A DNA stretch of 60,672 nucleotides from Phycisphaerae bacterium (GTDB taxonomy: Bacteria > Planctomycetota > Phycisphaerae > JAJVII01): positions 1-60,672 of the forward strand of contig JAJVII010000040.1 in the NCBI GenBank assembly GCA_022072085.1. Reading direction: 5' to 3'. The number at the start of each line of letters is the position of its first letter. Position 1 is the stretch's first letter. Made by a program: the position numbers and the translations under genes. This document shows positions 801 through 40,277 of this stretch, piece after piece. The notes below the pieces were generated by a model that made no database searches, was not told where the DNA came from, and saw only the letters and a program-made list of their open reading frames with translations.

Positions 801-809
801 GAGCCGAAA

Positions 810-825: not shown

Positions 826-890
826 TCGCCGGGCCTTGGGCAAGCCGGCCTGATGATGGCAGCCCGGACGCAAACCAGGAGGCAACCTTC

Positions 891-1157: not shown

Positions 1158-1186
1158 CGCGATGGCGGGCGCCGCCCCGCCGTCCC

Positions 1187-1202
1187 GGTCGCTCAAGCGA
1201 CC
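1187..1202 (+). terminator. hairpin between the RHH-like and HARE-HTH genes
   Basis: GGTCGCT-CA-AGCGACC is a perfect 7-bp inverted repeat in the gap after the stop at 1157, with further outer complementarity (CCCGGTCG/CGACCGGG). No T-run follows, so its use as a terminator is uncertain. Confidence 0.35.
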
Positions 1203-1259
1203 GACCGGGACGATGGGTCGGGAGGTCCGGCCCGTGACACCTTTACCGAGGAGCGAATC

Positions 1260-2009: not shown

Positions 2010-2023
2010 GAACGCCAGCCACA

Positions 2024-3442: not shown

Positions 3443-3443
3443 G

Positions 3444-3911
3444 TTACTCACCTCCAGGCAGAGAGATTGAATCTGCTGTCGCCGACAGCGACCGTCGCTG
3501 CTGGCGGATTTTCCGTTGGCGGTCACTGCATGCCTGCCGATGGCACGGCTTGCATGCCGAGATGGCCCCGTCGTAGGGGTAGTAGCAGTAGCGGTAGAAC
3601 TCAGTCAGCGGCTTGGTCTGGCCGCACTTGCAGCAGCGCTTGTAGGGGACGCCGTCGCGGGACTCGTATCCTGCGTGAATGTGCCGGTGTTCCGCGGGAG
3701 TCACCAGCTGCAGATTCTCGATCCGGTTATCGCGGTTGTTCCCGTTGACGTGGTGTATGGCCATTCCCTCAGGAATCGGGCCGCGGTTTGCCTCCCATAC
3801 CGCTCGGTGTTCCATGACCAGCCGACCGTTGACGCGGCGGCGTCTCGGCCGTTGACGTTGCCGCTGCCCAAGTCGGTGCGTAACCACTGGCGACCTCCAT
3901 TTCCTGGTCAT
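3444..3911 (-). CDS. HNH endonuclease with zinc finger
   Basis: The HNH core is IHHVNGNNRDNRIENLQLVT (His53-His54 and the Asn pair), followed by EHRHIH around 75-80. A C-terminal zinc-binding region has CCKCG and, about 25 residues later, CKPC. The N-terminus is arginine-rich and basic. I place the start at the ATG whose bases overlap the upstream stop (ATGA); an alternative GTG at 3887 has a better GGAGGT site five bases away. Phage HNH proteins of this size often sit near methylase or terminase genes and nick or cut DNA. The stop is one base before the ParB-methyltransferase start. It might also be a free-standing homing endonuclease. Confidence 0.85.
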   Translation of the reverse strand: MTRKWRSPVVTHRLGQRQRQRPRRRRVNGRLVMEHRAVWEANRGPIPEGMAIHHVNGNNRDNRIENLQLVTPAEHRHIHAGYESRDGVPYKRCCKCGQTKPLTEFYRYCYYPYDGAISACKPCHRQACSDRQRKIRQQRRSLSATADSISLPGGE

Positions 3912-4561
3912 GTTCGGCGCGAAGACAAACAAAGAACTAGCGGCCGGCTGCTCGCCCGGCCCACGGGCGGTTTTTCGGCCAGTAAGGAACCATTCGTCTG
4001 CCACAATGGCAGGCCCGCGACGTTCGCCCCCGTTCGCCCCTGTCGCGTCCGGGCGGGCGCCTTGGCCACGTGCTCGACAGCGGCCGAATCGTTCGCCCGT
4101 GGGCCAACGGGTGGCGTTGGGTGCGAAGGCTCTGTGCTTGCCGCGGACAACGCGGTAGAATGCTCGCCGGTCGGATGCTCCTGCCTATCGCCATGACGCC
4201 CCCCCTCGTCGTGGCAAGCTGGCGTCCGACCTTTTTCATGTACGGCCTGGCCGACTGCGGCGGCGTGGCCTCGCACCACGCTGGGGCTTGTTTTCCCTGC
4301 GCCGCGTGGTGGGAGCGGGGCGGTGACGTACTCGTTGTTGCGCAACGGCCCGCGATACATGGCGCAGTAGAGCCAGTGCTCGGGCTGGTCGCTGCCCAAT
4401 GGGCACGTGTCATATCGCCGGCAGTCACCGCAGCGGCAGAACTTCAGGACGACCACGTCCTGGCCGGCATGGTGCTGGACGACGGGCTGGGGCTGTTCAG
4501 CCGCCGCCGTCGGCCGGTCAGCCTTGGTCGCTGCCGGCGCAGGATGTTTGAATTCGTACAT
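3908..4561 (-). CDS. cysteine-rich small zinc-finger protein
   Basis: The start at 4561 has AGGTGA nearby. Residues about 38-70 carry a cysteine cluster (CRCGDCRRYDTCPLG, then YCAMYRGP) that looks like a metal-binding finger. The rest, to residue 217, is low-complexity, rich in Pro, Ala, His and Arg. No catalytic domain was recognised. The ATGA overlap with the HNH gene suggests co-translation. The C-terminal two-thirds could have arisen by read-through into non-coding GC-rich sequence, because its composition is unlike a folded domain; the N-terminal finger is the well-supported part. Confidence 0.6.
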   Translation of the reverse strand: MYEFKHPAPAATKADRPTAAAEQPQPVVQHHAGQDVVVLKFCRCGDCRRYDTCPLGSDQPEHWLYCAMYRGPLRNNEYVTAPLPPRGAGKTSPSVVRGHAAAVGQAVHEKGRTPACHDEGGRHGDRQEHPTGEHSTALSAASTEPSHPTPPVGPRANDSAAVEHVAKAPARTRQGRTGANVAGLPLWQTNGSLLAEKPPVGRASSRPLVLCLSSRRT

Positions 4562-4585
4562 CTGGTCACCTGCCCTGGTCATCGC

Positions 4586-4784
4586 TGGCACGCGGTGGCA
4601 CGCGATCCACCCGATTGCGCTCTATGCTGCTCAGGCGCGTGCGCGTGTGCGCGCACGCGCGCCTGCGCACATGTGCAAAAGGAGACATCGCGTGCCATCG
4701 CGTGCCAGAAACGTAAGGCTTGATTCATCAATCGCTTACCGATTTCGATATCGCGTGCCACATCGCGTGCCGGAACGCGTGCCA
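4586..4784. repeat. iteron-like repeats, candidate replication origin
   Basis: Seven copies of a 9-11-base word lie in 200 bases without a gene. Two are in one direction (TGGCACGCG at 4586 and TGGCACGCGAT at 4596). Five are inverted relative to these: ATCGCGTGCCA at 4687, 4697 and 4750, a close copy at 4762, and ACGCGTGCCA at 4775. Spacing is 10 bp in the first two groups and 12 bp in the last, about one helix turn. An AT-richer segment (4711-4750) separates the groups, and a Z-DNA-prone tract lies between the inverted sets. The primase-helicase gene ends 31 bases away. This is the layout of iteron origins in plasmids and phages; origin function is inferred. Confidence 0.6.
4635..4676. repeat. 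alternating purine-pyrimidine (Z-DNA-prone) tract
   Basis: Bases 4635-4662 alternate strictly between purine and pyrimidine (mostly GC/GT steps), and after a short break 4664-4676 alternate again. Such tracts flip to Z-DNA under negative supercoiling. It lies inside the candidate origin, between the two groups of iterons. Confidence 0.7.
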
Positions 4785-4814
4785 AGGCCGAAACGACCGT
4801 CTTGGAGGCGGAAA

Positions 4815-7244
4815 TCACCACTTGGCACCCCCCTGCGCGCCCTCTGGCGCAACTGATATTCCCTCGTACCACCGCATCCGAACGCCAGCCAAGCGGGGCT
4901 GTGTGACGCGCAGGCCAGGCATTACGGCCCGCAAATCCCGTCCGAATGTCTGGATCGTGCCCACATGGGTCCGGCCAATGGACTGGCAGTAGTCCCGCCA
5001 GGCGGCGAACAGTTCGTTCATCTCGACGGACTGGCCGTTGCCCACGAGACACCGTTCCCGCACGAACGCACCGACCGGGCTGAACAGGTCCTCCAGGTCG
5101 CCGATCGTGTCCTCGACGCTGGCCGGCTGGACGAACCGCCCACGGGCGTGCAGCCGCTGCCAGCCCTGGAGCGCCCACAGCAGGATGCCGGGCAGCTCGG
5201 CCAGCAGCTTGTTGGTCAACTCGATGTCCTCGCGACCATAGAAGCTCGTGGTGAACCGCAGGACGAGGAATCGGCCGGCGAGCGCCCCGCTGGCGTCGGA
5301 CGCCCCGGGCAACTCGTTGGTCAGGAACATGAACCGCGTGGGCAGCTTCATCGTGACTGATCCGACGTGTTTGCGGTCGATGGTGAGCGTGTCCTCGCCG
5401 CTGATGCACAACAGGCGCTCGACGACGACGGCAATGTCGTCGCCCTTGAACCGGGCGTCCGAGACGATGGCCACGCTCTTGCCGATCAGTGGCTGGAGGC
5501 CGAATGGGCCGGCGAGAGACGATGTGGTCGGGCCCGCGACGTTGCCAGCGCCGACCAGGCGGGTCAGGACGCGCCCGATCGTGCCCTTGCCGCACCGCTT
5601 GGGGCCCAGGAGCAGGAGCATCTTCTGCTGGCTGGTGTCGACGGTCAGGCAGTAGCCGAACCACTCCTGGAGCAGGTCGATGGACTGCTGGTCGTCGGGC
5701 CACAGCTCCTGGAGGAAGGCCAGCCACTTGGCGGGCACGGCCGCGGCCGGGTCGTAGTCGAACTCCAGGGAGTTGATGTTGAACAGGGCCGGCGTCGCCG
5801 GGAAGGTCGTAGCCGTCGGGATGTGCAGGTTCAGCGACCGGCAGGACAGGACGGCCCTGGGGTCCGGCCTGCCCGCGGCGTCGCCCAGCCACGACGGCAG
5901 CGGCATGCTGGCCGGCAGGTGCGTGAGCGTCCGCACCGAGTCCAGCGCCGCGTTGATGCTGGTCGGGTTGGCCGGGAACGGCAGGAGTTCCTGCTCGTGG
6001 GTGCTGCGGTTGTAGACATGGTGGACGGAGTCGTGCAGCCAGGGCTGGAGCAGGTTCTTGACGGTCCCGTCTTCGACTTCGACGTAGCGGTTGCCACGCC
6101 ACTCCATGAGCAGGCCGGCGTAACTGTGCATGGTGCGGCCGTCGGGGTGGGTGCGGAACTCGCGGATGAACGCCTCGGCCGTGGGCAGCGTGCGGCTGGT
6201 GGATAGCACGAGCTTGCCGCTGACCGGGTCCCGCGTGCCCAGGGCGACGGCGGGCACGTCAGCCGGCGACGGCGGCGAGGCGCCGGGGCCGCCCGCGGCA
6301 GCGGCCCGACGCCGACGCTTCTTCGACTGGTACTGCTTGGTGACGAGCTGGAGCGCCTTGGCAATGGTCGCCTGGCCATAGGTCTGCTCACCATGCAGCT
6401 CGTCCCACTTGGGCCGGAACAGCTTGGACTGGCGGAAGAGCCGGTCGAGCTGGACCGGGTCCTTGGTGTAGAAGGCCAGCGTGAAGATGACCGACGAGTC
6501 GGCCTCGCTGGCGCTGTTGAAGTAGTCGTTCCACCGGCCGGCCCACAGCGCGGTGAACTTGGCCCCGTTCTTCTTGCTGCCGGTCGCCAGATTGAGGATC
6601 TCGTCGTCGGTGAGGGTGGCCGGCTCGGCCGGTGCGGGCGGGGTGGCAGACGGTGGCGGGGCCGGCGCCGCCGCGGCAGCCGCCTGCGGCGGGCCGAACA
6701 CCTCGACGTAGAGGGCGTCCAGCTGTCCCTGGCGATCTTCCACGTCGGCGCTGACGCCGTCTAGTCGCTGCCCGGTCACAGTGAAGAACCGGCCGGTGTC
6801 GTAGATTTCCACCTCGCCGTCGTGGTAGCCCTTGCGGCAGCGGTTGCCCGGCTTGCGGCCGCGGATGAAGACCTTCACCCCGCCGCCCGACGGCGAGACC
6901 TCGGTGTAGGAGTCGAGCTGGTCGACGATCTGCCGCCCCCAGGGCTTCAGCTCGCCCGACGCCGGGTCGATGCTGTCGTCCAGGTCCACGCCGCAGAAGC
7001 CGGCTTCGCCCGTGAACACGAACCCGACGCCGGCATACTGGCTGGACGCCTGCCAGGCCGCCATCGCCTGGTCGAACGTCGCCCAGGTGGCCGGATCGGT
7101 CGAGTCCGCCGGCCCGCCCGTCTTGGCGTCCATCGGGCACTTGGTCGGCTTGCCGTCGCGGACGATCACCTTCCAGACCACCCACTGGGGAAGCTGGCGC
7201 AGCGCCGCCGGCACGACCGTAATGTCGAACGGGCGGTCGCTCAC
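4815..7244 (-). CDS. NrS-1-type primase-polymerase / SF3 helicase, 809 aa
   Basis: The GTG start at 7244 has GGAGG six bases upstream and overlaps the RecD-like stop by 4 bases (GTGA). Residues ~15-165 form an archaeo-eukaryotic primase-type domain: metal-binding DLD at 87-89 in GVDLDD, then SPSGGGVKVF and EIYDTGRFFTVTG. Around 205-290 is the helicase-binding domain known from phage NrS-1 polymerase (ADSS..FTLAFYT, then LFRQSKLFRPKWDE). After a proline-rich linker comes a P4/D5-type superfamily 3 helicase, with Walker A GPKRCGKGT (Lys553) and an FLTNELP sensor segment. Known relatives prime and copy DNA de novo and unwind it, so this protein alone could start replication of the element at the adjacent iterons. 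Confidence 0.9.
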   Translation of the reverse strand: MSDRPFDITVVPAALRQLPQWVVWKVIVRDGKPTKCPMDAKTGGPADSTDPATWATFDQAMAAWQASSQYAGVGFVFTGEAGFCGVDLDDSIDPASGELKPWGRQIVDQLDSYTEVSPSGGGVKVFIRGRKPGNRCRKGYHDGEVEIYDTGRFFTVTGQRLDGVSADVEDRQGQLDALYVEVFGPPQAAAAAAPAPPPSATPPAPAEPATLTDDEILNLATGSKKNGAKFTALWAGRWNDYFNSASEADSSVIFTLAFYTKDPVQLDRLFRQSKLFRPKWDELHGEQTYGQATIAKALQLVTKQYQSKKRRRRAAAAGGPGASPPSPADVPAVALGTRDPVSGKLVLSTSRTLPTAEAFIREFRTHPDGRTMHSYAGLLMEWRGNRYVEVEDGTVKNLLQPWLHDSVHHVYNRSTHEQELLPFPANPTSINAALDSVRTLTHLPASMPLPSWLGDAAGRPDPRAVLSCRSLNLHIPTATTFPATPALFNINSLEFDYDPAAAVPAKWLAFLQELWPDDQQSIDLLQEWFGYCLTVDTSQQKMLLLLGPKRCGKGTIGRVLTRLVGAGNVAGPTTSSLAGPFGLQPLIGKSVAIVSDARFKGDDIAVVVERLLCISGEDTLTIDRKHVGSVTMKLPTRFMFLTNELPGASDASGALAGRFLVLRFTTSFYGREDIELTNKLLAELPGILLWALQGWQRLHARGRFVQPASVEDTIGDLEDLFSPVGAFVRERCLVGNGQSVEMNELFAAWRDYCQSIGRTHVGTIQTFGRDLRAVMPGLRVTQPRLAGVRMRWYEGISVAPEGAQGGAKW

Positions 7245-14482: not shown

Positions 14483-15253
14483 CTACGACTCGACCTGCTT
14501 GCGGACCCGGTCCTGGGCCCGGACGAACGTCTTCAGGGCGATGCCCTTCGACTGGCAGAATTCCTTGCGGGACATGCCGCCCTTGCCCCTGGCCCGCTTC
14601 CAGTCGTCCATCAGTTGACGATCAGATTTCGGATCCTGGCGGCGCGGGGCGCCGCGCTTCTTGCTCGACGCAGGAGCCGTCGGTTTGCCTAGGACGCACG
14701 CGATCACCGGCACCGAGTCGACAAAGTGGATAGTGCCAAGCAGCTTGGCCAGCAACTTGGCCTCCATGCGGGCCGTGCCAGCCAGGCGTTCGACTGCAGC
14801 CGGGTCCGAAGAGGAATTCAGGCAGGCCTCGTCCAGGGCGGCGGCCGTCTGCATCAGGTCGGCCAGCTCCGACCGGACGCGATCGGCAATGTCGCGCTGG
14901 CCCGACGCCACCAACCGCGAGACGATGGCCCGGATCACGCCGCGCTCTGCCCCCAAGCCCCACTTGTTGACAGGCGCGGGGTGGCCGTCACAGCCAAGGC
15001 CCTGCTGAGGAGTCATCTTCGCCCACTCCATCAACCCGTCGGCGACGGCATTGAGCGACTCATCAGAGTAGACGTCCAGGTTTTCGTAGCGGCCCAGGGC
15101 GGCGAGGTAGCGGTCGGACCAGGGTGCGGATGGAGGGGAACTGTGGCCAGGTGCCCGGGCGGGACCCGCCTCGACGAACGAATTCCGATGCGTCTGAAGT
15201 TGCTGTTGGTCGTTCAGACGCTGGAGCAAACGCCTGATGCCGTGGCGGTCCAT
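14483..15253 (-). CDS. hypothetical regulator-like protein, 256 aa
   Basis: The protein starts with a basic helix (DRHGIRRLLQRLNDQQQLQTHR), has a mostly helical middle (VIRAIVSRLVASGQRDIADRVRSELADLMQ) and ends in a basic segment, DWKRARGKGGMSRKEFCQSKG followed by IALKTFVRAQDRVRK, which looks like a helix-turn-helix. It is read away from the integrase and excisionase genes, from a good sigma-70-type promoter with a palindrome over its -35 box. That setting is typical of a phage repressor, but the fold is not one I recognise, so the role is inferred from position. Confidence 0.65.
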   Translation of the reverse strand: MDRHGIRRLLQRLNDQQQLQTHRNSFVEAGPARAPGHSSPPSAPWSDRYLAALGRYENLDVYSDESLNAVADGLMEWAKMTPQQGLGCDGHPAPVNKWGLGAERGVIRAIVSRLVASGQRDIADRVRSELADLMQTAAALDEACLNSSSDPAAVERLAGTARMEAKLLAKLLGTIHFVDSVPVIACVLGKPTAPASSKKRGAPRRQDPKSDRQLMDDWKRARGKGGMSRKEFCQSKGIALKTFVRAQDRVRKQVES

Positions 15254-15271
15254 CGCCCTCCGCCATAATCC

Positions 15272-15286
15272 GTTAAGATAGTTAAG
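15272..15286. repeat. GTTAAG direct repeat near the leftward transcription start
   Basis: GTTAAG-ATA-GTTAAG gives two 6-base copies with a 9-bp period, just downstream of the -10 box of the leftward promoter. It could be half-sites for a regulator. Confidence 0.35.
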
Positions 15287-15303
15287 CCAGGATGACGGCG
15301 GGG

Positions 15304-15332
15304 ATTATACCGGCCTAGTTATCGGACAACAA
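15304..15332 (-). promoter_or_regulatory. sigma-70-type promoter for the leftward 256-aa gene
   Basis: On the minus strand TTGTTG (15327-15332) and TATAAT (15304-15309) are separated by 17 bp. The predicted start of transcription is about 40 bases before the start codon at 15253. It is among the best-matching promoters in the element. Confidence 0.6.
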
Positions 15333-15341
15333 GCATCTTGT
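15329..15341. promoter_or_regulatory. candidate operator palindrome
   Basis: ACAAG-CAT-CTTGT is a perfect 5-bp inverted repeat with a 3-base centre that overlaps the -35 box of the leftward promoter. Its place between the leftward regulator and the rightward excisionase/integrase genes fits an operator of a lysogeny-type switch. The rest of the gap, 15342-15655, shows no further clear element. Confidence 0.4.
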
Positions 15342-15655
15342 CAGCATTGTCTTAAGTCATTCTACAGCAACGACATATTGGTTTGGCGTAGGTTATGTCA
15401 CAACGCCCGTCTGAGGCGACACAACGCTGCCTCACCCAGGGCGTGCCGTAAGTCCTTGTACCGTCTCGCATTCTTCACGCGAATCGCTTCCACGCTATTC
15501 TTTCGCTCCACGCAGCACCCGCCATCGAACCTTCGCTGACGGAGGCGCCGCCAGCCCGACACATGATCGGGCCCGCCGGTAGGTAATGGGGACGGCGGGC
15601 GGGTAACGGCCGCCACTGGCTGAACCGCGCCCGAGCCGGAGATGGAGACGCCCCG

Positions 15656-15925
15656 TTGGAACAGACGTGCCCAAACGAGCCGAGGCCAGGCGGGGTCGGG
15701 GCCCCTCCACCAGCGGGTCCGCCTGCGCCGGCCATGTTTACCGCCCAGGACATAGGCCGCATGTTGGCCTGCTCGACGCGGACCATCTATCGCCTGGCCG
15801 ACGCCGGCCAGATGCCCGCGCCCATCCGCCTGGGGTCGCTGGTCCGCTGGCCGCGGGCAGCCGTCGAAACATGGATCGCCGAGGGCTGCCCGGCCGGCCG
15901 GCCATCGCGGCCTCGACGCCGCTGA
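15656..15925 (+). CDS. AlpA/excisionase-like HTH protein
   Basis: The recognisable part, from Met at 15734, is a MerR-type/helix_turn_helix_17 domain: FTAQDIGRMLACSTRTIYRLADAGQMPAPIRLGSLVRWPRAAVETWI. This is the standard AlpA/Xis-like fold that bends DNA or switches integrase toward excision. A TTG start at 15656 has GGAG eight bases upstream and adds a Pro/Ala-rich leader; the ATG at 15734 would give a 63-residue protein of more usual length but has no clear ribosome site. The integrase gene follows about 115 bases later in the same direction, which supports an excisionase role. Confidence 0.8.
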   Translation: MEQTCPNEPRPGGVGAPPPAGPPAPAMFTAQDIGRMLACSTRTIYRLADAGQMPAPIRLGSLVRWPRAAVETWIAEGCPAGRPSRPRRR

Positions 15926-15941
15926 ACGGCCATGTTCGATG

Positions 15942-15973
15942 CAGCCGGAATCCTGGAGATTCCAGCCGGAATC
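15942..15973. repeat. repeats before the integrase gene
   Basis: CAGCCGGAATC occurs at 15942-15952 and again at 15963-15973 (21-bp period, two helix turns), and GGAATC-CTGGA-GATTCC (15947-15963) forms a hairpin across them. The spacing suggests paired protein-binding sites, perhaps for the excisionase or integrase arm domain. A related word, GCCGGAATC, also occurs near 210-218. Confidence 0.35.
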
Positions 15974-16040
15974 TGCTTGAGGTCGGTGCCGGCCCACGGC
16001 TCAGTGTGTCAGGACGACTCGGAATTACGGAGAGACGCCC

Positions 16041-17549
16041 ATGGCAACTGTGTTCAGAAAGACCTACACGCAGCACCTGCCCAAAGGCGCGAAGATCGTC
16101 CAGCGGCAGGGCAAGAAGATGGCCCTCTGGCTGGACGCCAAGGGCCGGCCGCACTACGACGACGTGACGGTCGGCCGGAAGGGCAAGCTCAAGATCATCC
16201 GCCACAGCCCGACGTGGACGGCCCAGTACCGCGACGCCGACGGCAACACCGTCTTCGAGGGCACTGGCTGCCGCGACGAGCAGGCCGCCCGGCACGTGTT
16301 GGCCAAGCTGGTCCAACGCGTCGAGCACATCAAGGCCGGCATCATCACGCCGCAGCAGTACCGCATGGCCGACCACGCCGACCGACCGTTGGCCGAGCAT
16401 GTCGAAGATTATCTGGAGCACCTGAAGGCCAAGACGGTCCGCGGCCGCCGCGTCTCGGCCAAGCACCGCGAGAACGTGAAACGCGAACTGACCCGCGTGG
16501 TCGGCGACTGCCGGTTCCGGCGGCTGGGCGATATCACCCGAGATGCGATGGAACGGTGGATGAACGCCCGCGAGGAAGACGGCATGGGCGCCCGCACGCG
16601 GAACACCTACCGCTCGTCCATCGTCGCATTCTGTAACTGGTGCGTCGAGACCGACCGGATGGCGACAAGCCCCCTGGCCAAGCTCTGCGTGGCCGATGAA
16701 CGCGGCGACCGCCGCCGGGCCCGGCGGGCGCTGACCCAGGACGAGGTCGCCCGCCTGCTGACGGCCGCTCGACTCCGCCCGCTGGCGGAGTTCGGCCGCG
16801 AGACCATCCACCGCCCGGCCAAGGATCGCAAAGGTCGGCGGACGTGGACGAAGGCCCCGCTGGTGTTCGACGACCTGGAGGCGGCCGCCGCCCGGGCCCG
16901 GGCCGTGCTGAAAGACAACCCTGAATTCCTGGAAGAGTTGGAGCGGGTCGGCCGCGAGAGAGCGCTGGCCTACCGGATTATGGTGCTGACCGGCCTGCGG
17001 AAGGGCGAACTGGCCAGCCTGACTGCCGGGCAGCTCGAACTCGACGCCCCCAGCCCGTTCGCCGAGCTGCTGGCCAAGGACGAAAAGGCCGGCCGCGGGG
17101 CGAAGATCCCGCTACGGGCCGACCTGGTCGCTGAAATCCGCGAGCACCTGGCAGACAAGCTCGGCTGCCTCCAGACAGACGCCCGCCGCGGCGGTCAGCC
17201 GGTCCCCGTCCGCCTGCCTGCTGCCACGCGGTTGCTCCGCGTGCCTCGGGATTTCGTGCGTATCCTCGACCGCGACCTGGCCGTTGCCGGGATCGCCAAG
17301 ACCGACGACCGCGGCCGCCGGGTCGATATCCATGCCCTCCGCCACACCTTCGGCACGCACCTGAGTCTGGCCGGCGTCGCCCCCCGCGTCGCCCAGGCCG
17401 CCATGCGGCACTCGACGCTTGAACTGACCATGAACGTCTACACCGACCCGCAACTGCTGGATGTGGCAGGCGCGATTGACTCACTACCGGCGTTCAGTAG
17501 AGCACTTACCCACACGCGCTCAGCACGAATTGCGCCAACTCGCGCATGA
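16041..17549 (+). CDS. tyrosine recombinase (phage-type integrase), 502 aa
   Basis: The start is fixed by GGAGAG just upstream. The N-terminal ~110 residues form an arm-binding-like basic domain, ~120-215 the SAM-like core-binding domain, and ~235-495 the catalytic domain. Catalytic residues are visible: Arg320 in TGLRKGEL, His431 and Arg434 in HALRHTFGTHL, His457 in MRHSTLELT and nucleophile Tyr467 in NVYTD. The protein is longer than the usual 380-400 residues because of inserts around 245-300 and 350-400. It catalyses integration and excision of the element; the gene lies at the element's right end, next to the truncated hsdM, as expected for an attachment site beside int. Confidence 0.95.
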   Translation: MATVFRKTYTQHLPKGAKIVQRQGKKMALWLDAKGRPHYDDVTVGRKGKLKIIRHSPTWTAQYRDADGNTVFEGTGCRDEQAARHVLAKLVQRVEHIKAGIITPQQYRMADHADRPLAEHVEDYLEHLKAKTVRGRRVSAKHRENVKRELTRVVGDCRFRRLGDITRDAMERWMNAREEDGMGARTRNTYRSSIVAFCNWCVETDRMATSPLAKLCVADERGDRRRARRALTQDEVARLLTAARLRPLAEFGRETIHRPAKDRKGRRTWTKAPLVFDDLEAAAARARAVLKDNPEFLEELERVGRERALAYRIMVLTGLRKGELASLTAGQLELDAPSPFAELLAKDEKAGRGAKIPLRADLVAEIREHLADKLGCLQTDARRGGQPVPVRLPAATRLLRVPRDFVRILDRDLAVAGIAKTDDRGRRVDIHALRHTFGTHLSLAGVAPRVAQAAMRHSTLELTMNVYTDPQLLDVAGAIDSLPAFSRALTHTRSARIAPTRA

Positions 17550-17720: not shown

Positions 17721-20114
17721 CTAGCGGGTCCGCACAATGATCGGACTGCGAACGGCGACAGGTTGGATCGACAATCTCGTCATGCTCGCCGCGATGGACA
17801 GCGATTGCATCGCTACCTGGGGATCGATCGGCGACTCGCCGAGATCGACGAGTTCCGCGGCAAATGCCACACGCTGACGGGGGTCGAAGTCCATTCCCGG
17901 CGGATACGGGGCGACTTCCTCGTAGGATAGCTCGACAAGCCACATGTCGCCCTCGGCAGCCCGTTCCTTGCCGGGCTTGTAGCGGCTGAGCCTGTACTCT
18001 CGGCAGATTGTGGGAAAGCTGTCGTGACCGCCATGGGGCGCTCTTATTCCGCGAACATCCGGCCCAGGATGAAGAACCGGCGTGATGTGCCGACAAGCCC
18101 ATGTAGCCTGCCCGACTTCACTGACAGGCGGGTCCGCGCAAATCACAATTCGCAGTACTGGCTGCTGTGCTTCGTCCAGCCACGCGACTGGAATCGGTAG
18201 CTGGACCCGCACCTTGTCGGCCGGTGAGTCGATGTATCCTTGCCATATGATCACCGCTGAACCATTTGCAGGAGTGACCAAGCGGCCAACGCTTGCTCGG
18301 CCATGCCCAAGCGTCCGCTCAGCGAGGTCGGCGATTTGTCTGTCATTGACGGGCCGCGTCGCTGTCAGCGTCAGAAACGCTCGTGCTGTCACCGCAAAGG
18401 GCTGCGTGCCTGGCATACAGTATTTCTGAAGTTCGGCCAACGTGATTGCCGACTCGCGGGCTAAAATCGGGGCGGCGTGAGACGTGCCGATGCGATCCTC
18501 GGGCAGACCGGCCCCCGAGAATCCCCATACGCCCATGCCATGCACCGGACGATAGGCGGTGTCAGTATTTCCGCCCGGCGCACAGAACGACGGAATTGGG
18601 GCTGCGCACAAACCTGGGCCGATCCGTGTAAATGGGCTTGGCCAGCCTACAGTTCGCACCAAACCATCGGCCGACGGTCGCGAGACATACGCTCCACAAA
18701 TGAGCGTGTTGAACCCGCATGCCCACGGCCCAAGGGCCCAGCGGGGGTCAGCGTGGTGACCAGGGTACAACGGGTTGGGGACGACACCCGGTTGGGAATT
18801 ACCAGCGGCAACAACAACGATAACATCATTAGCGAAGATGAAGTTATCCAAGTCCTGTAGCAACAGCCGCTTTTCGTGTTTGACCACAGCGTCAAACGCA
18901 TCAAGAGGCCGCGAATCGCCGAAACTCATGTTGAAGACGCGGACATCCGGTGCAGCGCCACGTACGCCGCGCACTGCATCCATCACAATCTTGTCGTTTA
19001 CGCGGTCATTCTGGCCGGACCCATCAGGGTACTCGGCAACCAAAGCGTCATAGAATGTGCAACGGCCTATTGAACTGTTCAGGTCATCGTGAGTGCTGTG
19101 GTCACCAAAGACAATCCGCGACGCCACGAAGGAGCCATGATCTCCCACCGGGCTTGGGGGAGCGTCTTGCGGCACAAACTGGCCTCGACGATACGGGCCA
19201 AGTTGTTTGTGGTTCGCGGGGATACCTAGATCCACAACAGCTACGCATGGAAGCTCGTGGATATTTGGCGGCGGGGGCTGCGGCTGAGCCGCAGATACAG
19301 AACCAGCAAGTGCTCGGACGGCTTTCCCTGCGGCGATTGAGTAGAGGGGAGAGTGGATCGCCTGAACGGAGAAGAAATCCTTGGCGATGCCACGAATTGA
19401 GCGTTGGCTGGCCTCCCCCCTGAACCAATGTCGCCCCGAGAAGTCCGTCCCGGTCCCGGTTAACTTCTCTCCTTCACGCTGCACAAGCAAATCGGCAATT
19501 GCACGAAGGACGGTATCTGCTTCAACGCGCGTCAGGACGGGCTGAAGTTCGATCACCACATCGGTAGTCTCGTTCGACCGAATTCCCTTTAGCCAGTCCG
19601 CGTCAACACGGAGTTGAAGTGGAACCGCGTCGAATGAATCAATCGTCACCCAACGCGATTGTTCGCGGAGGCCAAGCGAGTCGAGAGAAGTCGCACGCTG
19701 CACTAGTTGATCAATACGTTCCTTTTCGGCATGAACGACCGCTTGTCCGATGTCAGTCACTTGTAGCAGGTCGAGGCCCAGTCGGTCAAAGACCCGGCCA
19801 TGTGCCCCGCCGTATTCCGTCTTCTCCTTGAAGGTTCCACTGGGAGCTTTCTTCTTGTTAGTAGATTCCTTCTCCACATCGGCCACGGGCAGCGCCAACA
19901 GGAAATAGCGCCGGTCTTTCAGCGGGTCGTGCGACGCTTCTATGGTTCGCACAGCCCCGTTGAGGCTCCGGCTCAGTTGCCTTGCTTTGGCCGCCCAAGA
20001 AATCCCAGCGTAATGCGGAAGTCGGCCTCCACCGTCCCGCTCCACGGGAGAAAGCTCGTGGCCCTCGTTCAAGAAGAACGTGCGCGGAGAGGGGGATTGT
20101 TCATGTTGAGCCAT
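17721..20114 (-). CDS. subtilisin-like serine protease, IetS-like
   Basis: This S8-family protease has 797 residues. The catalytic triad is Asp295 in VAVVDLGIP, His326 in GDHGSFVAS and Ser545 in GTSHAAP, with the oxyanion Asn in AAGNSQPG. About 280 residues precede the protease domain and about 200 follow it, with no signal peptide, so it is cytoplasmic. The base composition is less GC-extreme than the chromosomal genes, which suggests transfer. An AAA+ ATPase gene ends 4 bases before its start. This ATPase-subtilisin pair is the layout of IetAS, first described as a plasmid stability pair and later listed as an anti-phage system. The assignment is from domain pairing and order only. Confidence 0.88.
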   Translation of the reverse strand: MAQHEQSPSPRTFFLNEGHELSPVERDGGGRLPHYAGISWAAKARQLSRSLNGAVRTIEASHDPLKDRRYFLLALPVADVEKESTNKKKAPSGTFKEKTEYGGAHGRVFDRLGLDLLQVTDIGQAVVHAEKERIDQLVQRATSLDSLGLREQSRWVTIDSFDAVPLQLRVDADWLKGIRSNETTDVVIELQPVLTRVEADTVLRAIADLLVQREGEKLTGTGTDFSGRHWFRGEASQRSIRGIAKDFFSVQAIHSPLYSIAAGKAVRALAGSVSAAQPQPPPPNIHELPCVAVVDLGIPANHKQLGPYRRGQFVPQDAPPSPVGDHGSFVASRIVFGDHSTHDDLNSSIGRCTFYDALVAEYPDGSGQNDRVNDKIVMDAVRGVRGAAPDVRVFNMSFGDSRPLDAFDAVVKHEKRLLLQDLDNFIFANDVIVVVAAGNSQPGVVPNPLYPGHHADPRWALGPWACGFNTLICGAYVSRPSADGLVRTVGWPSPFTRIGPGLCAAPIPSFCAPGGNTDTAYRPVHGMGVWGFSGAGLPEDRIGTSHAAPILARESAITLAELQKYCMPGTQPFAVTARAFLTLTATRPVNDRQIADLAERTLGHGRASVGRLVTPANGSAVIIWQGYIDSPADKVRVQLPIPVAWLDEAQQPVLRIVICADPPVSEVGQATWACRHITPVLHPGPDVRGIRAPHGGHDSFPTICREYRLSRYKPGKERAAEGDMWLVELSYEEVAPYPPGMDFDPRQRVAFAAELVDLGESPIDPQVAMQSLSIAASMTRLSIQPVAVRSPIIVRTR

Positions 20115-20118
20115 GCGG

Positions 20119-21033
20119 TTACCCCACCGTTCGCAAAGCCTGCCGTCTAGCTTCCCCTATAACGATGCCTTCAGCATGCGCAAAACTGTCTGCCGCTGCT
20201 GTGCGACGAAGCACCGAGACGGGAAGCCTTATGCCTTTGGCCCGTGCGAGCCGTTTCGCATAACTGGTCAAGACTTTCCTGGAAGGTGCTTTGAAAAGCA
20301 ACGTCAGATCAAACCTGCGCCAAAGCGCATCGTCTAGGTGCTTAGCGAGATTTGAAGTGCCGATGATCAGTCCAGCTGGCCGCGAGTGCTCAAGCTCCTG
20401 CATCAGCGCAATGACTATCCGATCCAGTTCCCCAACGTCTAGCGGGCTGCCGCGCTTCTTGCCGAGAGCATCTAGTTCGTCCAAGAGCAGGACGCACGGG
20501 GTCGTCTCGGTGAAATGGAACAACTGGCGGAGATGGATTGCAGTCTGGCCGAGATACGCGCCAATGATGGCGTCAAATCGCACAACGAACGTCGGAATTC
20601 CGAGTTCGCGACCGATGGCCCGAGCTGAGAGGCTCTTGCCACAACCGGGCGGGCCGTGAAAAAGCAGTTTTGAGCGGGGTTGGATGCCCCGCTGCTGGAG
20701 CCGCTCGCGATGTCGCCATTCAAGGATTACGGCCTGTAGCTCTTGCCGGGCCTTGGTTGTCAAGACGACATCCTGCAACTGCACATCGGGTGCTAGACGC
20801 ACGAGGCCAGTGGAAAGAAAACCGGTGCTCCCGGGGAACGGTCCCGGCGGACCTTCGGCCTGTGTCAGAGCCCGCCCATTGGGATGCAGCGCCCCACGCA
20901 GGAGGCGAGCGGCGGTCGTGTGACCCTGCCGCTGTTCTGCTTTGCAGATTTCCGTGGCGATTGCGGAGGCGCTGGCGAGGTCCTCGGCAGCGATTGCCCG
21001 GAAAAGTCCTGCTAGTTTGCGAACAGTCGCCAT
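20119..21033 (-). CDS. AAA+ ATPase, IetA-like
   Basis: The N-terminal ~100 residues are helical. The AAA+ module follows: Walker A FHGPPGCGKSLSARAIG (Lys133), Walker B CVLLLDELDALGKKRG, sensor 1 GTSNLAKHLDDALWRRFD with the arginine finger, and a small C-terminal lid domain. I use Met at 21033 rather than the upstream TTG at 21084, which lacks a ribosome site. In IetAS-type pairs the ATPase is thought to sense or remodel a trigger and control the protease. It is the promoter-side gene of a leftward operon, ATPase - protease - hsdM. Confidence 0.86.
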   Translation of the reverse strand: MATVRKLAGLFRAIAAEDLASASAIATEICKAEQRQGHTTAARLLRGALHPNGRALTQAEGPPGPFPGSTGFLSTGLVRLAPDVQLQDVVLTTKARQELQAVILEWRHRERLQQRGIQPRSKLLFHGPPGCGKSLSARAIGRELGIPTFVVRFDAIIGAYLGQTAIHLRQLFHFTETTPCVLLLDELDALGKKRGSPLDVGELDRIVIALMQELEHSRPAGLIIGTSNLAKHLDDALWRRFDLTLLFKAPSRKVLTSYAKRLARAKGIRLPVSVLRRTAAADSFAHAEGIVIGEARRQALRTVG

Positions 21034-21624
21034 CCTGGGCCGATCTCTTATCAGCGCTCGTTCGGCTGTCGTCCTGGCCGACAAGGTCTCAGGACCGTGA
21101 TGTCAGTGGCAGCCGCCGCTAAGTGCCGATGGCGGGCATTATACGTGCGGTTGAGCAAGAATCCAATCCGCCTCTCCGTGTGTGCCCGGCTGTTCTGCGC
21201 CGCCGGTCCAGCCAGCCCAGGATGCACGGTCTGGCGCTCTGCTCGTCCACGATCGTGCCGCGACCCTCGACGGTCACGCGATACTCGGCATCAGGTGACT
21301 GGCCAACCGGGCATGATCCCCCACCCGGCTGCCCACGCGGCCAAACAGGCTCAGGCAGGCGGGGTCGCCCATCGGCACGGCCAGCGGCCTGTCGGCCAGG
21401 CAGGACGCCCCGGGTTGCCGCCTCGCCCTTCGCCTCGCCCCTCGCCTTGCACCTGTACTTGCACTAGTACTTGCACTTCCTACAGTCCATCGTAGACGCT
21501 ATAGACGCTGGTGGCACAGAATCGGCCCTGGCGGGCGGGGGGCGGGGTCGGCCGGAGGGGGCGCAAGTCGCGACGGGGGTACGCGATAGACGCCGGTGTC
21601 CTCAATAGACGCCGGCGTCATGAA
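21034..21624. other. 590-base gap with a possible gene relic and short repeats
   Basis: On the minus strand a frame from ATG 21490 to TAG 21119 is open except for one in-frame TAG after eight codons (MDCRKCKY). Behind it are CKYRC and a segment EYRVTVEGRGTIVDEQSARP that looks protein-like. The stop falls inside a direct repeat (GTGCAAGTAC twice, then GTGCAAGG). It may be a decayed gene or chance in GC-rich DNA. The segment also carries TAGACGC repeats near the tRNA. I see no other gene. Confidence 0.3.
21493..21619. repeat. TAGACGCY repeats
   Basis: The word TAGACGC(T/C) occurs at about 21493, 21502, 21587 and 21606, the last three extended to ATAGACGCYGGYG. The final copy contains the 12-base perfect palindrome GACGCCGGCGTC (21608-21619), just 5 bases from the tRNA 3' end. 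It could be processing or regulatory sites, or the footprint of a mobile element's tRNA end. Confidence 0.4.
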
Positions 21625-25474: not shown

Positions 25475-27433
25475 ATGCGAGCGAACCGCCGTCCGTTCAC
25501 CATCGCCGGCCGCTGGTTGCTGGCAGCCCTGTTTGTCTGCGGGCTGATCGCCACGGCTCCCACCGTCCGGGCCGCGGACGACCCGGCCTCGGTCCTGCCG
25601 GACGACACCCTCCTCTATCTGGTCGTCCCCAGCGTGGACAAGCTCAAGGCCGACTTCAAGAAGACGAACGTCTACGGGCTCTACAAGGATCCGGCGATGC
25701 AGCCGTTCGTGGGACCGGCCGAGGCCAAGATCCGGGCCAAAGTCGACGAGAAGCTGGCCGAGGCCTGGAAGAAGATGGGCCTGGAAGAGCCGCCCAAGGA
25801 AGTGCCCGTCCCGACCGGCCGCGTCGCCCTCGGATTGCGCATGGTGCTCAAGAAGAAGTCGTTCACCTTTACGCAGTATGACGACGACGGCAAGCCGTTC
25901 CAGAAGACCCAGGAGTACACCGCGCCCGAGCCCGAGTTCGTGATCTGGGCCCAGATGGGCGATCGGCTGGCGACGGCCAAGCAGCTCATTGAGAAGGCCG
26001 CCGAGAAGTCGGTCAACGACGAGGGCTACCGCCGCCAGACCGACAACATCCGCGGGACCGACGTCGTGATCCTCACCCCGCCGGCGCCGGACAAGGACAA
26101 GGGGAACAGCAAGGACGAGCCCGTCTGCTACGCCATCCGCGGCGACACGATCGTCGCGAGCAACAGCGAGGAGTTCTTCCGCAACACCATCGCCCGCATC
26201 GGCGGCGCCGAGGCGGGTGCGACGCTGGCCGACAACGCCGGCTTCAAGAGCATCAGCCGCAAGCTCGGCGCCGACTCGGCCAACGTGCTCCTGTTCGTCA
26301 ACGCCCAGGCCATCATCAAGATGGTCCGCGACAAGGCCGGCGAGAAGGGCCGCGAGCAGATCGAGAAGGTGATCGGCACGCTGGGACTGGACGGACTGAC
26401 CGGGCTGGGCGTCGCCATGAACGTCGGCGCCTCGCCGGTCGAGGACTTCCGCGTCCGCGCCCTCGTGGGGATGCGCGGCGAGCGCAAGGGCGTGCTGGCG
26501 CTGCTGACGCCGGCCAGCCGACCGGTCCGCGGGCAGAAGATGCTCACCAGCGACCTGGTCGGCTTCCTTGTCGCCAACTACGACATCGGGCGCATCGTCA
26601 CCGAGGGCGCCAAGTTGGCCGAGGCCCTCACCGGCCAGCCCGTCGGCCAGATGATGCAGGGCGCGATGGAGCAGACGGCCGAGGGCGAGGGCGGTCGGCC
26701 AGCCGTCAATCTCCAGCAGGAGTTGCTCGGCCAGATGTCCGGTCCGGTCCAGGTGCTGGTGTGGGCCCACAAACCCTACGCCGCCCCGGACAGCATGCAG
26801 TTGCTGGTCACGCTGGGCCTGCGCGACGCAAAGACCTTCGCCACCGCGCTGGGCCGCATCCACACCACGTTCATTGCCCAGGGCAACAAAGAGACCCAGC
26901 AGGACTTCCAGGGCACGACGATTTTCCTGCTCAAGAGCCTGCCGATCCCGGGCCTGGGCGGCGCAGTCCAGAAGGACAACCCGATCTCGATGGCCGTCTC
27001 AGGCTCGGACCTGCTGCTGGGCGGACTGAAGCGCGTGCAGCAGTCGATCCGCGACGGCGGGCGGCAGGACCTCAAGAGCATCGAGGCCGACGCGATGTAT
27101 CAGCACGCGGCCCGCATGCTCCCGCCACAGGCCGGCCTGGTGTTCTATGAGAACGGCGTCGTCGCCGGCGAGCGCTCGTGGGTTCAGCTTAAGCAGTTGG
27201 CCAAGAAGGCCGCCCAGGGCGGCGAGGGCGGCGAGGGCGGCGACGACGGCCCGTCCGGTTTCAACCCGATGGTCCAGGTCGTCAAGGAGATTCAGAAGTA
27301 CGCGGACTTCAACGCTCTGCCCGACTTCGGCGCCGTCAAGAAATACTTCGGCGCCTCGGTCGGCTACCTCGTGGACACCGACGAGGGGCTGCTTCTGGAC
27401 ATGGTCAGCGTCAAGCCGCCGGCCGGCAACTGA
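25475..27433 (+). CDS. exported protein of planctomycete DUF3352-like type, 652 aa
   Basis: The start has AAAGGA upstream. The signal peptide is RWLLAALFVCGLIATAPTVRAA. The mature part opens with VLPDDTLLYLVVPSVDKLKADF, which resembles DUF3352-type proteins common in planctomycetes, where PDDTLLY-type openings recur. The body is mixed alpha/beta with lysine-rich helices and a glycine-rich stretch near residue 590 (GGEGGEGGDDG). No enzyme motif was seen. It is probably an envelope protein of unknown role. A strong palindromic terminator follows the stop by about 30 bases. Confidence 0.85.
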   Translation: MRANRRPFTIAGRWLLAALFVCGLIATAPTVRAADDPASVLPDDTLLYLVVPSVDKLKADFKKTNVYGLYKDPAMQPFVGPAEAKIRAKVDEKLAEAWKKMGLEEPPKEVPVPTGRVALGLRMVLKKKSFTFTQYDDDGKPFQKTQEYTAPEPEFVIWAQMGDRLATAKQLIEKAAEKSVNDEGYRRQTDNIRGTDVVILTPPAPDKDKGNSKDEPVCYAIRGDTIVASNSEEFFRNTIARIGGAEAGATLADNAGFKSISRKLGADSANVLLFVNAQAIIKMVRDKAGEKGREQIEKVIGTLGLDGLTGLGVAMNVGASPVEDFRVRALVGMRGERKGVLALLTPASRPVRGQKMLTSDLVGFLVANYDIGRIVTEGAKLAEALTGQPVGQMMQGAMEQTAEGEGGRPAVNLQQELLGQMSGPVQVLVWAHKPYAAPDSMQLLVTLGLRDAKTFATALGRIHTTFIAQGNKETQQDFQGTTIFLLKSLPIPGLGGAVQKDNPISMAVSGSDLLLGGLKRVQQSIRDGGRQDLKSIEADAMYQHAARMLPPQAGLVFYENGVVAGERSWVQLKQLAKKAAQGGEGGEGGDDGPSGFNPMVQVVKEIQKYADFNALPDFGAVKKYFGASVGYLVDTDEGLLLDMVSVKPPAGN

Positions 27434-27464: not shown

Positions 27465-27490
27465 GGGCCCGGCTCACGTGAGCCGGGCCC
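27465..27490 (+). terminator. perfect 26-base palindrome followed by TTCTTC
   Basis: GGGCCCGGCTCAC and its exact complement GTGAGCCGGGCCC abut, giving a 13-bp inverted repeat (11 bp or more in RNA) followed by a pyrimidine run. It ends the transcript of the gene at 25,475-27,433. Confidence 0.75.
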
Positions 27491-27536: not shown

Positions 27537-27552
27537 TGTTCCACGTGGAACA
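27537..27552. promoter_or_regulatory. parS-type centromere site 1
   Basis: TGTTCCACGTGGAACA is a perfect 16-base palindrome identical to the high-GC form of the chromosomal ParB binding site parS known from Pseudomonas. ParB loads here and spreads to organise the origin region. Confidence 0.85.
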
Positions 27553-27577
27553 CTCGGCCGCCCGACTGCGCGCAGAA

Positions 27578-27593
27578 TGTTCCACGTGGAACA
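27578..27593. promoter_or_regulatory. parS-type centromere site 2
   Basis: This is a second exact copy of the 16-base palindrome, whose centre is 41 bp from the first. Its symmetry extends to 22 bases (27575-27596, GAAT...ATTC). Two exact copies so close together argue against chance. Confidence 0.85.
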
Positions 27594-27596
27594 TTC

Positions 27597-27965
27597 TGAA
27601 TTTTGAAAACCTTCTCCGTCGGCGCAGGGGGCGAAAGTCCTATCTTCTTACCGCAAGTCCAGTATCTCCGCGCGTGCCCCCCTCGAATTCTCCGGAAGAT
27701 CGCCGCGAGAATGCTGAACGCCGCGCCCGATTGCTTGAGATGCACACGACTTCACCCGACATCGCACCGGGAAGATAGGACTCTGCATTCGCCTGCGTCG
27801 GCCTGTATCCGCCTGCGTCGACGCTTCGCAGGTCCTCTGCTATTCCGGCGCGGGGTCGCCCCGGGAGAGGATACCCCGCAACCGCGTACAGGCTGTCGGC
27901 TCTTGCCTCAGCGCCTCCGCGACTCAGCGGCGATCTCTTCCGAGCGACAGCGGGACCGGGTCGTC
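27597..27965. other. 370-base gap without a gene
   Basis: The gap follows the parS pair and precedes the stop of a leftward gene. It contains a GCCTGCGTCG word repeated at about 27,791 and 27,811, and an imperfect CTCAGCGCCTCCGCG / ACTCAGCGGCGA repeat at 27,907-27,935 that recurs in inverted form near 35,731 and 37,484. No gene was recognised. Confidence 0.4.
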
Positions 27966-30368
27966 TCAGGGGATGATGATGCCGCCGCCGTCGGGCGGGG
28001 TTGACGCCGGGCCACCGGGGATGATGATGCCGCCGTCGTCCGGCTGCGTCGCGGGGCCCTCTTCCGGCTGCGTGGTCGGCGGGACGGGTTTGGGCTTGTC
28101 CATCATCGCGTAGAGCACCACGTTGGCGGCCACCTGGGCCGCCGACGGCGTCAGGTAAGTCCGCGCCCCCCAGGCCATGTGGCCGTCCAGACTGTCGTGC
28201 ACGCCGTAGCGCGACAGCAGGATCCGCGGCCAGTCGCTCTCGACGTACGCCGTCAGGGGCCCGCCGACGATCGGCTCGTCCAGCCGCCACTGCTGGGCCC
28301 GCCGCAGCTTGACCAGCGGCAGGCCGCGGTAGCGGTCGGCGTACTTGCCGGTCATGAGCATCGACTCGCTGGACAGGCCGGTCGCGACCGCGCCCCCGCC
28401 GTAGCCGACCTGGCGGATCAGCCGCTCAGCCGCCGCGCTGAAGGCCTCCGCCCCGCCGATGGCGTCGAGATAGATCGTGCCGCCGCCGTCGAGGTAGGCC
28501 CGCAGCGCCGCCGCCTGGGCATCGGTGAGCTTGAAGTCGCCCACGCCGGTGAACCAGAGCAGGCGGTAGGGCGCCAGCGTGTCCTTGCCGATCTCGACGC
28601 CGGTCGTGACATCGAGGGCAACGTAGTTCTCGGCGCGAAGCTTCTGGTCGAGGTAGTCCAGCGCGTAGGGCTGGGTGTGCCAGTTGCCCTCGTGCTTGAT
28701 CCAGGCGACCTTGCAGGTTTCGCGAGCGTCGCGGTCGCCGCCGGGGAATACCGGCCTCATGTGCGTCGCCAGCGTGTTGGAGCCGGTGGTGTAGCGGAAC
28801 AGGTTCACGCCGACGCCGAAGTGGTCGGGGCTTTGCACGATGGCGTAGCGCTGCCAGGTGCAGCCGAGGTCAGCGCCGCTGACCAGCGCAACCATCCGCG
28901 TGCCGTCGGAGACGCCCCAGAAGGGCTCGTTCCTGGGCCCGTCGGCGATCTTGGCGTAGGCGGTGTAGATCGGATGGTCCGCCGGGAGTTGGGCCAGCTC
29001 GAAGCAGCCGGGGGCGTCCTTCTTCTGCGCGGCGTAGAGGCCAGCCAGCTTCGTCTTGACGTCGGCCAGGAACGGCGGGTCCACGCCGACGGGCATGAAC
29101 AGCAGCGTCCCGCCGCGCAGGGAGTATTCGCGCAGCTTGTCCCACTGGGCGTCGGTGAGCTCGAGCGGCTTGCGCCCGGAGATCAGCAGGATCGGGGCGT
29201 CCAGCAGCAGGCGGAGGTCGTCGTTGATGTCAACCACCTGCCAGCGCATCCGCTCCTCGGTGGTGCGGCGCATGTACTCGGCGAAGCGGGCGACCTCGCG
29301 CGGGCGGGCGTCCCACTCGGCCGGCTCACCGTGGATGACCTTGTTGAACACCAGCGGGATGCGTCCGCGGGCCAGGAAGATCAGTTCGAGCGACGCCCGC
29401 ACGTCCGGGCCCCACTGCCCTCGGAAGCTGGGCCCCGCCGGGCTGGGTTTGACCAGTTCCCCGGCCCCCATCGCGAACCAGTCCTTGTCGCCGAGGAACT
29501 TCCGCCCGCTGGCCATGCCGACGCGCTGGATGCAGAACGCGAGGTACTCGTTGTCGATGTAGTTCGGCTTGAGCCCGTCGGTGAGATACTTCAAGCCGGC
29601 GTCGACCTGCTTCTGGGCGGCGAAGGGGGCGTCGCAGTTCATCCCGACGATGGCGTCCTGGATGAGGTAGAGGCTGGCCACGCCGGCCGCGGTCATCGGC
29701 ATGGTGCTTTCGCCGAGGTTGCCCGGCTGGCCGGAGTAGGTCCACCCGCCGTCTGGCTTCTGGCGGGCGATCCACTGCCGCTGGATCGACAGCAGGAGGT
29801 CCTGGGGGATTTCCTCGGCCGCCCGCGCCGCCTCGTGCAGCGCCAGCAGGGCGAACTGCGAGCAGGAGTTGTCGCCGCTCCGGTCGGCGCCGGTGTAGGT
29901 CCAGGCGCCGTTGGCCTTGGAGTTCCTGCCCAGCCAGCGCAGGTCGTCCAGGAAGACCTTGCGGTACTGCTCGGGCATGTCGCGTCCGCCCATTTCGGCA
30001 ATGGCCATGATCCGCAGCGAGCGGACGTAGCAGTTGGCGTTGGCGACGGCGCAGACGGCGTCCAGTCCCTTGCGAATCTCGTCGCGTCCGGGCTGCTCGC
30101 CGGCCTCCATCAGGGCGAACAGGGCCAGGGCCGTCGTGCCGCCGGCGGGGAGCTGCGTGTAGTTGGGCCACTGCCCGTTGGCCAGTTGGCGGCCATAGAG
30201 CCAGCGGACGTCGCGTTCGATGGCGCGGTCGACGTCCTCGTCCATGACGTCGCGCATCTGGCCCTTGGGCGGTGTCCGCTGGGCGGTGAGGCGCGCCGGC
30301 CAGGCCGCCAGGGCAGCCGCCAGGACCGCCGTCAGGATCGCCGCTCTGCCGGCTCGTGCTGCGGTCAT
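27966..30368 (-). CDS. exported toroid (terpene-cyclase-like repeat) protein with DUF4159-type domain
   Basis: A signal peptide (AAILTAVLAAALAAWPARLTA) leads into an alpha/alpha toroid of squalene-cyclase/prenyltransferase type (VRWLYGRQLANGQWPNY, QFALLALHEAAR, QKPDGGWTYSG) up to about residue 340, then a DUF4159-type domain (DAPILLISGRKPLELTDAQWDKLREYSLRGGTLL motif style, with ADHPIY and GADLGCTWQRY). The cyclase catalytic DxDD motif is not seen, so it is probably not a cyclase. The tail repeats DGGIIIP and GGGIIIP after PTTQP and ATQP linkers. The start overlaps the TPR-like gene's stop by 4 bases. A paralogue lies at 46,228-48,594. Function unknown. Confidence 0.88.
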   Translation of the reverse strand: MTAARAGRAAILTAVLAAALAAWPARLTAQRTPPKGQMRDVMDEDVDRAIERDVRWLYGRQLANGQWPNYTQLPAGGTTALALFALMEAGEQPGRDEIRKGLDAVCAVANANCYVRSLRIMAIAEMGGRDMPEQYRKVFLDDLRWLGRNSKANGAWTYTGADRSGDNSCSQFALLALHEAARAAEEIPQDLLLSIQRQWIARQKPDGGWTYSGQPGNLGESTMPMTAAGVASLYLIQDAIVGMNCDAPFAAQKQVDAGLKYLTDGLKPNYIDNEYLAFCIQRVGMASGRKFLGDKDWFAMGAGELVKPSPAGPSFRGQWGPDVRASLELIFLARGRIPLVFNKVIHGEPAEWDARPREVARFAEYMRRTTEERMRWQVVDINDDLRLLLDAPILLISGRKPLELTDAQWDKLREYSLRGGTLLFMPVGVDPPFLADVKTKLAGLYAAQKKDAPGCFELAQLPADHPIYTAYAKIADGPRNEPFWGVSDGTRMVALVSGADLGCTWQRYAIVQSPDHFGVGVNLFRYTTGSNTLATHMRPVFPGGDRDARETCKVAWIKHEGNWHTQPYALDYLDQKLRAENYVALDVTTGVEIGKDTLAPYRLLWFTGVGDFKLTDAQAAALRAYLDGGGTIYLDAIGGAEAFSAAAERLIRQVGYGGGAVATGLSSESMLMTGKYADRYRGLPLVKLRRAQQWRLDEPIVGGPLTAYVESDWPRILLSRYGVHDSLDGHMAWGARTYLTPSAAQVAANVVLYAMMDKPKPVPPTTQPEEGPATQPDDGGIIIPGGPASTPPDGGGIIIP

Positions 30369-39053: not shown

Positions 39054-40277
39054 ATGCGCACGATTGCAGTGGCCAATCAGAAGGGCGGTTGCGGCAAGAC
39101 GACCGTCAGCATCAACCTGGCGGCCTGCCTGGCCAACCAGGGCCACCGGACACTACTAGTCGACGCCGACCCCCAGGGCCACTGCGCCGTGGGGCTGGGC
39201 GTTCCCGAAGCCGAGGTCCGCCACTCGGTCTATCACCTGCTCTGCCCGCCGGATGGCGACACGATCCCCCTGCACGAAGTCGTCTGGCAGATCGCCGCCA
39301 ACCTCGACCTGGCGCCGTCGAACCTGGAGTTGGCCAAGTTCGAGACGGCCATGGCCGCCCGCGCCGGCCGCGAGAAACTGCTGGCCGAGGCCCTAACCGC
39401 CGCCCAGGGGCGCTACGACTTCGTCATCATCGACTGCCCGCCGAGCCTGTCGCTGCTGACCTTCAATGCGCTGTGCGCCGCCGACGAGGTGCTCATCCCC
39501 GTCGAGGCCGGATACTTCGCCCTGCACGGGCTGGGCCGGCAGCTCGAGGTCATCGAGAGCCTCCAGGTGCTCACCGGCCGACGGCTGGGCGTGCGGCTGG
39601 TCTGCAACCTCTACGACATCCGCACCAAGGCCGCCCGCAAGATCAACAACCAGCTCCGCGAGCACTTCGGCGACCTGATCACCCACAGCGCGATCAACCT
39701 GAACACCAAGCTCAAGAGCGCCGCCGCGGTCGGCCAGCCGATCACCGAGTTCGACCGCACGAGCATCGGCTACCACGACTTCACCGCCCTGGCCCGCGAG
39801 ATCGCCGAAACCCCGGCCGCCGTCGAGCCCCTGTTGGCCGACGACACGCTGCTGGAGCAGGCCAACTCGATCAGCCGGCAGGCCGAGCAATTGCTCGCCG
39901 ACAGCGCCCGGCTGGTCAGCGGCTCGGTGGCCGACCGCATCGGCGGCGACCCGCTGCGGGCGATCGAGGGCATGACGCTGGAGCAGAAGCTGGAGGAGTT
40001 CTACGGCGTGCGCCAGATGCCCACCGGCACGGTCTTCGCCGTCCGCGCCCCCGAGGCCGAGTCGGTCTTCGTCGCCGGCGACTTCAACAACTGGTCGCCC
40101 CACGCCATGCCCCTGGACCGCGACGGCAGCGGGCGATGGGCCGGCGCGACGCTGCTGGCCCCGGGGACGTATCGCTACCGCCTCGTCGTGGACGGCCAAT
40201 GGATGCACGACCCCCACAACGACCGCCGCGAAGGCAACCCCTTCGGCGAACTGAATTCCGTGTTTGAGGTCCGATGA
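39054..40277 (+). CDS. ParA/MinD-type ATPase fused to a CBM48-like domain
   Basis: Residues 1-265 are a complete ParA: deviant Walker A QKGGCGKTT (Lys10 and Lys15), VDADPQG, and Walker B IIDCPPSLSLLT, resembling chromosomal Soj. After a helical linker (about 270-320), residues ~325-407 form a glycogen-binding/AMPK-beta-like early-set domain: FAVRAPEAESVFVAGDFNNW, then GTYRYRLVVDGQWMHDP and NSVFEV. CBM48 modules bind alpha-glucans or act in protein contacts; on a ParA they are unusual. The fusion could link a gradient-forming ATPase to storage granules. No parB gene lies beside it. Confidence 0.93.
   Translation: MRTIAVANQKGGCGKTTVSINLAACLANQGHRTLLVDADPQGHCAVGLGVPEAEVRHSVYHLLCPPDGDTIPLHEVVWQIAANLDLAPSNLELAKFETAMAARAGREKLLAEALTAAQGRYDFVIIDCPPSLSLLTFNALCAADEVLIPVEAGYFALHGLGRQLEVIESLQVLTGRRLGVRLVCNLYDIRTKAARKINNQLREHFGDLITHSAINLNTKLKSAAAVGQPITEFDRTSIGYHDFTALAREIAETPAAVEPLLADDTLLEQANSISRQAEQLLADSARLVSGSVADRIGGDPLRAIEGMTLEQKLEEFYGVRQMPTGTVFAVRAPEAESVFVAGDFNNWSPHAMPLDRDGSGRWAGATLLAPGTYRYRLVVDGQWMHDPHNDRREGNPFGELNSVFEVR

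Follow-up and report, generated by a model that had tools for sequence, protein, structure and literature searches.

A parS pair in a Phycisphaerae genome, probably one of several dispersed copies carried by intergenic repeats

Examination of a 60,672-nucleotide stretch from a Phycisphaerae bacterium, referred to here as the window, revealed two closely spaced copies of a palindrome matching parS, the chromosomal binding site of ParB. These copies are exact parS sequences, the repeats carrying them have substantial copies solely at parS loci, and in a relative of this bacterium short modules are shuffled with parS as their junction. The most likely explanation of the window pair is therefore that it is a genuine parS and one of several dispersed loci copied within short, non-coding repeats between genes. 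What is strong and new in this finding is the amplification of parS at the family level, which is most marked in the relative and less so in the window itself. The window is contig C40 of a draft assembly of 5.49 Mb in 72 contigs, estimated as 97% complete. The relative, designated G001, is another genus of the same family, also in draft form, and was the only other genome of the same order that we compared.

A motif search of the window located exact copies of TGTTCCACGTGGAACA at 27537-27552 and 27578-27593 (neither assigned to a strand), and no further match with up to 3 mismatches in the rest of the window. Base composition predicts approximately 5 × 10⁻⁶ exact copies per window, and shuffled windows gave a mean of 0.09 matches at up to 3 mismatches and never reached two, such that a chance origin of the two exact copies is excluded. 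The distance of 41 bp given in the initial annotation holds when measured from start to start and equals a gap of 25 bp. The first copy is a palindrome of 16 bp; the second, earlier described as 22 bases, was measured as a perfect palindrome of 26 bp, CAGAATGTTCCACGTGGAACATTCTG, at 27573-27598. The pair occupies a 539-bp intergenic space between convergent genes, the left one encoding 652 aa without a Pfam match (25475-27430, forward strand) and the right one a DUF4159 protein (27969-30368, reverse strand). Linkage to parAB is usual for chromosomal parS, but not required of every site. It was not found here, as the window is without parB and neither parB nor parA lies directly beside the pair.

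Other features of the window were also recorded. Between the end of the 652-aa gene and the parS pair lies GGGCCCGGCTCACGTGAGCCGGGCCC (27465-27490), a palindrome of 26 bp centred on CACGTG that looks like an intrinsic terminator. Positions 1-17546 are phage-like, with genes for a ParB_N-methyltransferase, a RecD2-type helicase, a PD-(D/E)XK nuclease, an AAA_24 protein and a tyrosine integrase (16041-17546). On the reverse strand at 17724-21084, in a stretch of lower GC content, a subtilase-like gene and an AAA ATPase gene match the PADLOC models for the IetS and IetA defence proteins.

Both window copies match the 16-bp palindrome consensus exactly and are letter-for-letter the same as parS2/parS3 of Pseudomonas aeruginosa, whose occupancy by ParB in vivo was confirmed by ChIP (PMC5098823). 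Since the motif is identical to P. aeruginosa parS, adjoins parB in most members of the class, and in the sister genus stands beside a ParB of the RXXG form, its identity as parS, which the initial annotation had proposed, is well supported by these sequence comparisons. The arrangement differs from that of P. aeruginosa, in which four parS are bound in vivo near oriC (PMC5098823), whereas the sites of the present genome and its relative lie in repeats and on many contigs. The pairing alone was dropped as an unusual sign; at least 118 stretches from across the bacteria hold pairs with gaps of 57-87 bp. Paired parS with gaps of 57-87 bp were likewise seen in four IMG/VR viral contigs (L231-L234), and a Bacillota MAG holds sixteen parS-type sites within approximately 2.2 kb, adjoining parA-parB (L131, 5633-7836).

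A genome-wide count of the motif, suggested earlier as a check, gave 13 sites, 11 of them exact, on six contigs: one on C3, two each on C24, C31, C40 (the window) and C53, and four on C58. The reversed motif, used as a control, gave 0 matches in the same genome at 1 mismatch and 3 at 2 mismatches. In G001 we found 107 sites with at most one mismatch, 82 of which were exact, and the reversed motif gave zero. Among 101 genomes of the class, a typical member has 0-3 exact parS-type sites, usually near parB, and ParB was detected above the curated cut-off in 99. The parS sites beside parB in the class are mostly spaced by 36-47 bp, into which the 41 bp of the window pair fits; many members thus have pairs like that of the window, but with parB adjacent, whereas the window pair has no adjacent parB. 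In a draw of 392 genomes of the phylum, the top site counts were 13, 12, and the 11 of the present genome. Many parS per chromosome, as here, are also known from Myxococcus xanthus, with 22 (PMC3899335), and from Streptomyces coelicolor and Listeria innocua, for which a review gives up to 20-23 (PMC7333895). The sites in these bacteria are reported to lie near the origin, whereas those described here are in dispersed mosaic modules, and they are fewer than the 107 of G001, which amount to approximately four times the maximum reported for other bacteria (20-24).

A serious possibility, although one we would sooner bet against, is that these sites form an ordinary origin-proximal array, that is, a single partition domain spanning a few hundred kb, which was multiplied locally and is special in number alone. 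From their summed sizes, the six parS contigs could span no less than approximately 257 kb, and a domain of that size would be smaller than the 650-kb competence zone of P. aeruginosa (PMC5098823). Orthologs (at least 60% identity) from five parS contigs of G001 fell on parS contigs of the present genome in 5 of 5 cases, and the 577 kb read from other contigs held none of them (chance by bases approximately 0.02); this small sample hints that the parS loci may be confined to a common domain, of no less than 257 kb. Against such an array, C54 and C48, the contigs that carry the two dnaA genes, have no parS; the relative has 107 sites as opposed to the 20-23 reported elsewhere (PMC7333895); and the sites occur in shuffled repeats rather than as independent motifs. 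The placement of the segment as probably near the origin in the initial annotation is not supported by this analysis, given the spread of parS over six contigs, the dnaA contigs without it, and the variable distance between parB and dnaA, which is approximately 25-50 kb in some complete genomes of the class but exceeds 1 Mb in others. No usable origin emerged when GC skew was sampled at 20 x 20 kb in each of two complete genomes of the class.

The evidence that parS was copied within repeats comes from the flanks of the sites. Alignment revealed a family I repeat common to the parS loci on C40, C31 and C3, which in the window extends from 27537 to 27817 on the forward strand. It includes an 11-bp inverted repeat whose left arm, AGTCCTATCTT (27636-27646, forward strand), is kept at C3 and has one change at C31, and whose right arm is AAGATAGGACT (27772-27782, forward strand), with AGATAGGACTCTG kept at all three loci. 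A second repeat of approximately 400 bp is common to the parS loci on C53, C58 and C24. When both were searched by BLAST against the genome, substantial copies were found solely at parS loci, and the remaining matches were of 29-39 bp. A search of the parS loci against Rfam found nothing. The sister genus does not have parS at the position of the window pair: the ortholog of the left flanking gene is on G001 contig C28, where parS is present but placed elsewhere.

Of the 65 G001 sites that were read, 41 belong to one network of shared flanks. For 122 pairs of sites one flank was at least 80% alike, and in 100 of these the other flank was at background. Since the similarity switches at parS, the G001 modules appear to have been shuffled with parS as the junction. 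Within the contigs read, every module motif observed adjoined parS, and the seven parS beside parB lie outside the modules.

BIME and REP repeats of enterobacteria are short intergenic mosaics round a palindrome, often between convergent genes. The parS repeats resemble them, being intergenic mosaics of short modules that in G001 are joined at the palindrome in varying order and in the present genome form two repeat families, and 11 of 26 scored parS clusters lie between convergent genes. It could be argued from this likeness that the element is a REP/BIME-like or mobile intergenic repeat whose palindrome is parS by accident, most copies being selfish or structural and the link to ParB incidental or merely tolerated. 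We regard this as rather unlikely, because the palindrome matches the parS consensus exactly and has been retained even as the modules diverged, and because the seven sites on the parB side are outside the modules. The parS repeats differ from BIME and REP in that their palindrome is parS and their copies are far fewer. Searches of open-access papers turned up no description of parS borne on dispersed or REP-like repeats.

The parB gene of G001 encodes 357 aa, and seven parS are situated between it and queE. The protein has the GERRWRA CTP-binding stretch as well as ENLHRADLNPIE, and could be aligned to structures of Spo0J and ParB. At the four specificity positions (R173, Y179, D184 and G201, placed by alignment to Noc and ParB) it reads R-Y-D-G, in keeping with the RXXG form, which ParB orthologs are reported to share without exception (PMC7383237), and judged by its sequence the protein is a canonical ParB with parS-type residues. 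In the assembly under study, a genome search found no canonical ParB, and no trace of the sister ParB was seen in the 1.03 Mb of the genome read. Contig C58 carries queE and, on the flank that parB occupies in G001, parS at 462 and 904; the contig ends 460 bp beyond parS in sequence holding a repeat. Because the contig ends at the expected parB locus, an assembly gap is the likelier reason for the absent gene, and the simplest reading is that parB likely exists but is unassembled. The initial annotation had listed an organism without ParB as telling against its proposal; formally this is the state of the assembly, but a gap is likelier because C58 breaks off where parB is expected. A repeat of approximately 135 bp at this contig end, beside parS and queE (L063, C58 125-261), has copies on C21, C20 and C7 that are 85-96% alike.

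Several ParB_N matches were considered as candidates for the partition protein. Those in the window (2027-3526, reverse strand), on C15 and on C50 were rejected because they are fusions to a DNA methyltransferase, and the C32 protein was rejected as a different, larger one that does not match canonical ParB. A role of the motif as the target of some other ParB-like or HTH regulator, and not in segregation, is highly improbable, for although the assembly lacks a canonical ParB and does hold ParB_N-methyltransferase proteins, in these a methyltransferase domain replaces the ParB HTH, and the sister ParB is canonical and adjoins seven copies of the motif.

The window also encodes a ParA ATPase (AAA_31) with a C-terminal AMPK1_CBM/CBM_48 domain (39054-40274, forward strand). 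This gene lies 11.5 kb from the parS pair, as noted before, but its description as unusual does not stand, as a match is present in all 101 class genomes, aligning along the whole length in 27. By these matches, the ParA-CBM48 is a trait of the class and not an oddity of the parS site. G001 has a second ParA gene (L106, 1203-2300) approximately 700 bp from a parS pair (L106, 396-493), whose product is 73% identical to a ParA on C57 of the present genome.

If the window pair is a repeat-borne parS, it would act as a site for nucleation and CTP loading of ParB. The ParB expected to be encoded beside queE would bind the pair, close into a sliding clamp, and then spread over nearby DNA. The locus would thereby join a partition domain of multiple sites, and ParB bound there would perhaps load SMC. 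The copying of parS through the genome would have taken place inside the intergenic repeats, whose spread might have come about by recombination from one parS copy to another, by a trans-acting transposase, or in some other way.

A 2020 review named as an open question why parS number varies and why the sites cluster (PMC7333895). We tentatively suggest, while leaning to the doubtful side, that parS may be the joining palindrome of a spreading repeat, and that the approximately 100 sites over a wide domain may constitute a distributed rather than a single-point centromere. This family, in which one genus has 13 sites and a second has 107, offers a natural experiment on the number, placement and multiplication of parS, and on how many ParB loading sites one chromosome tolerates.
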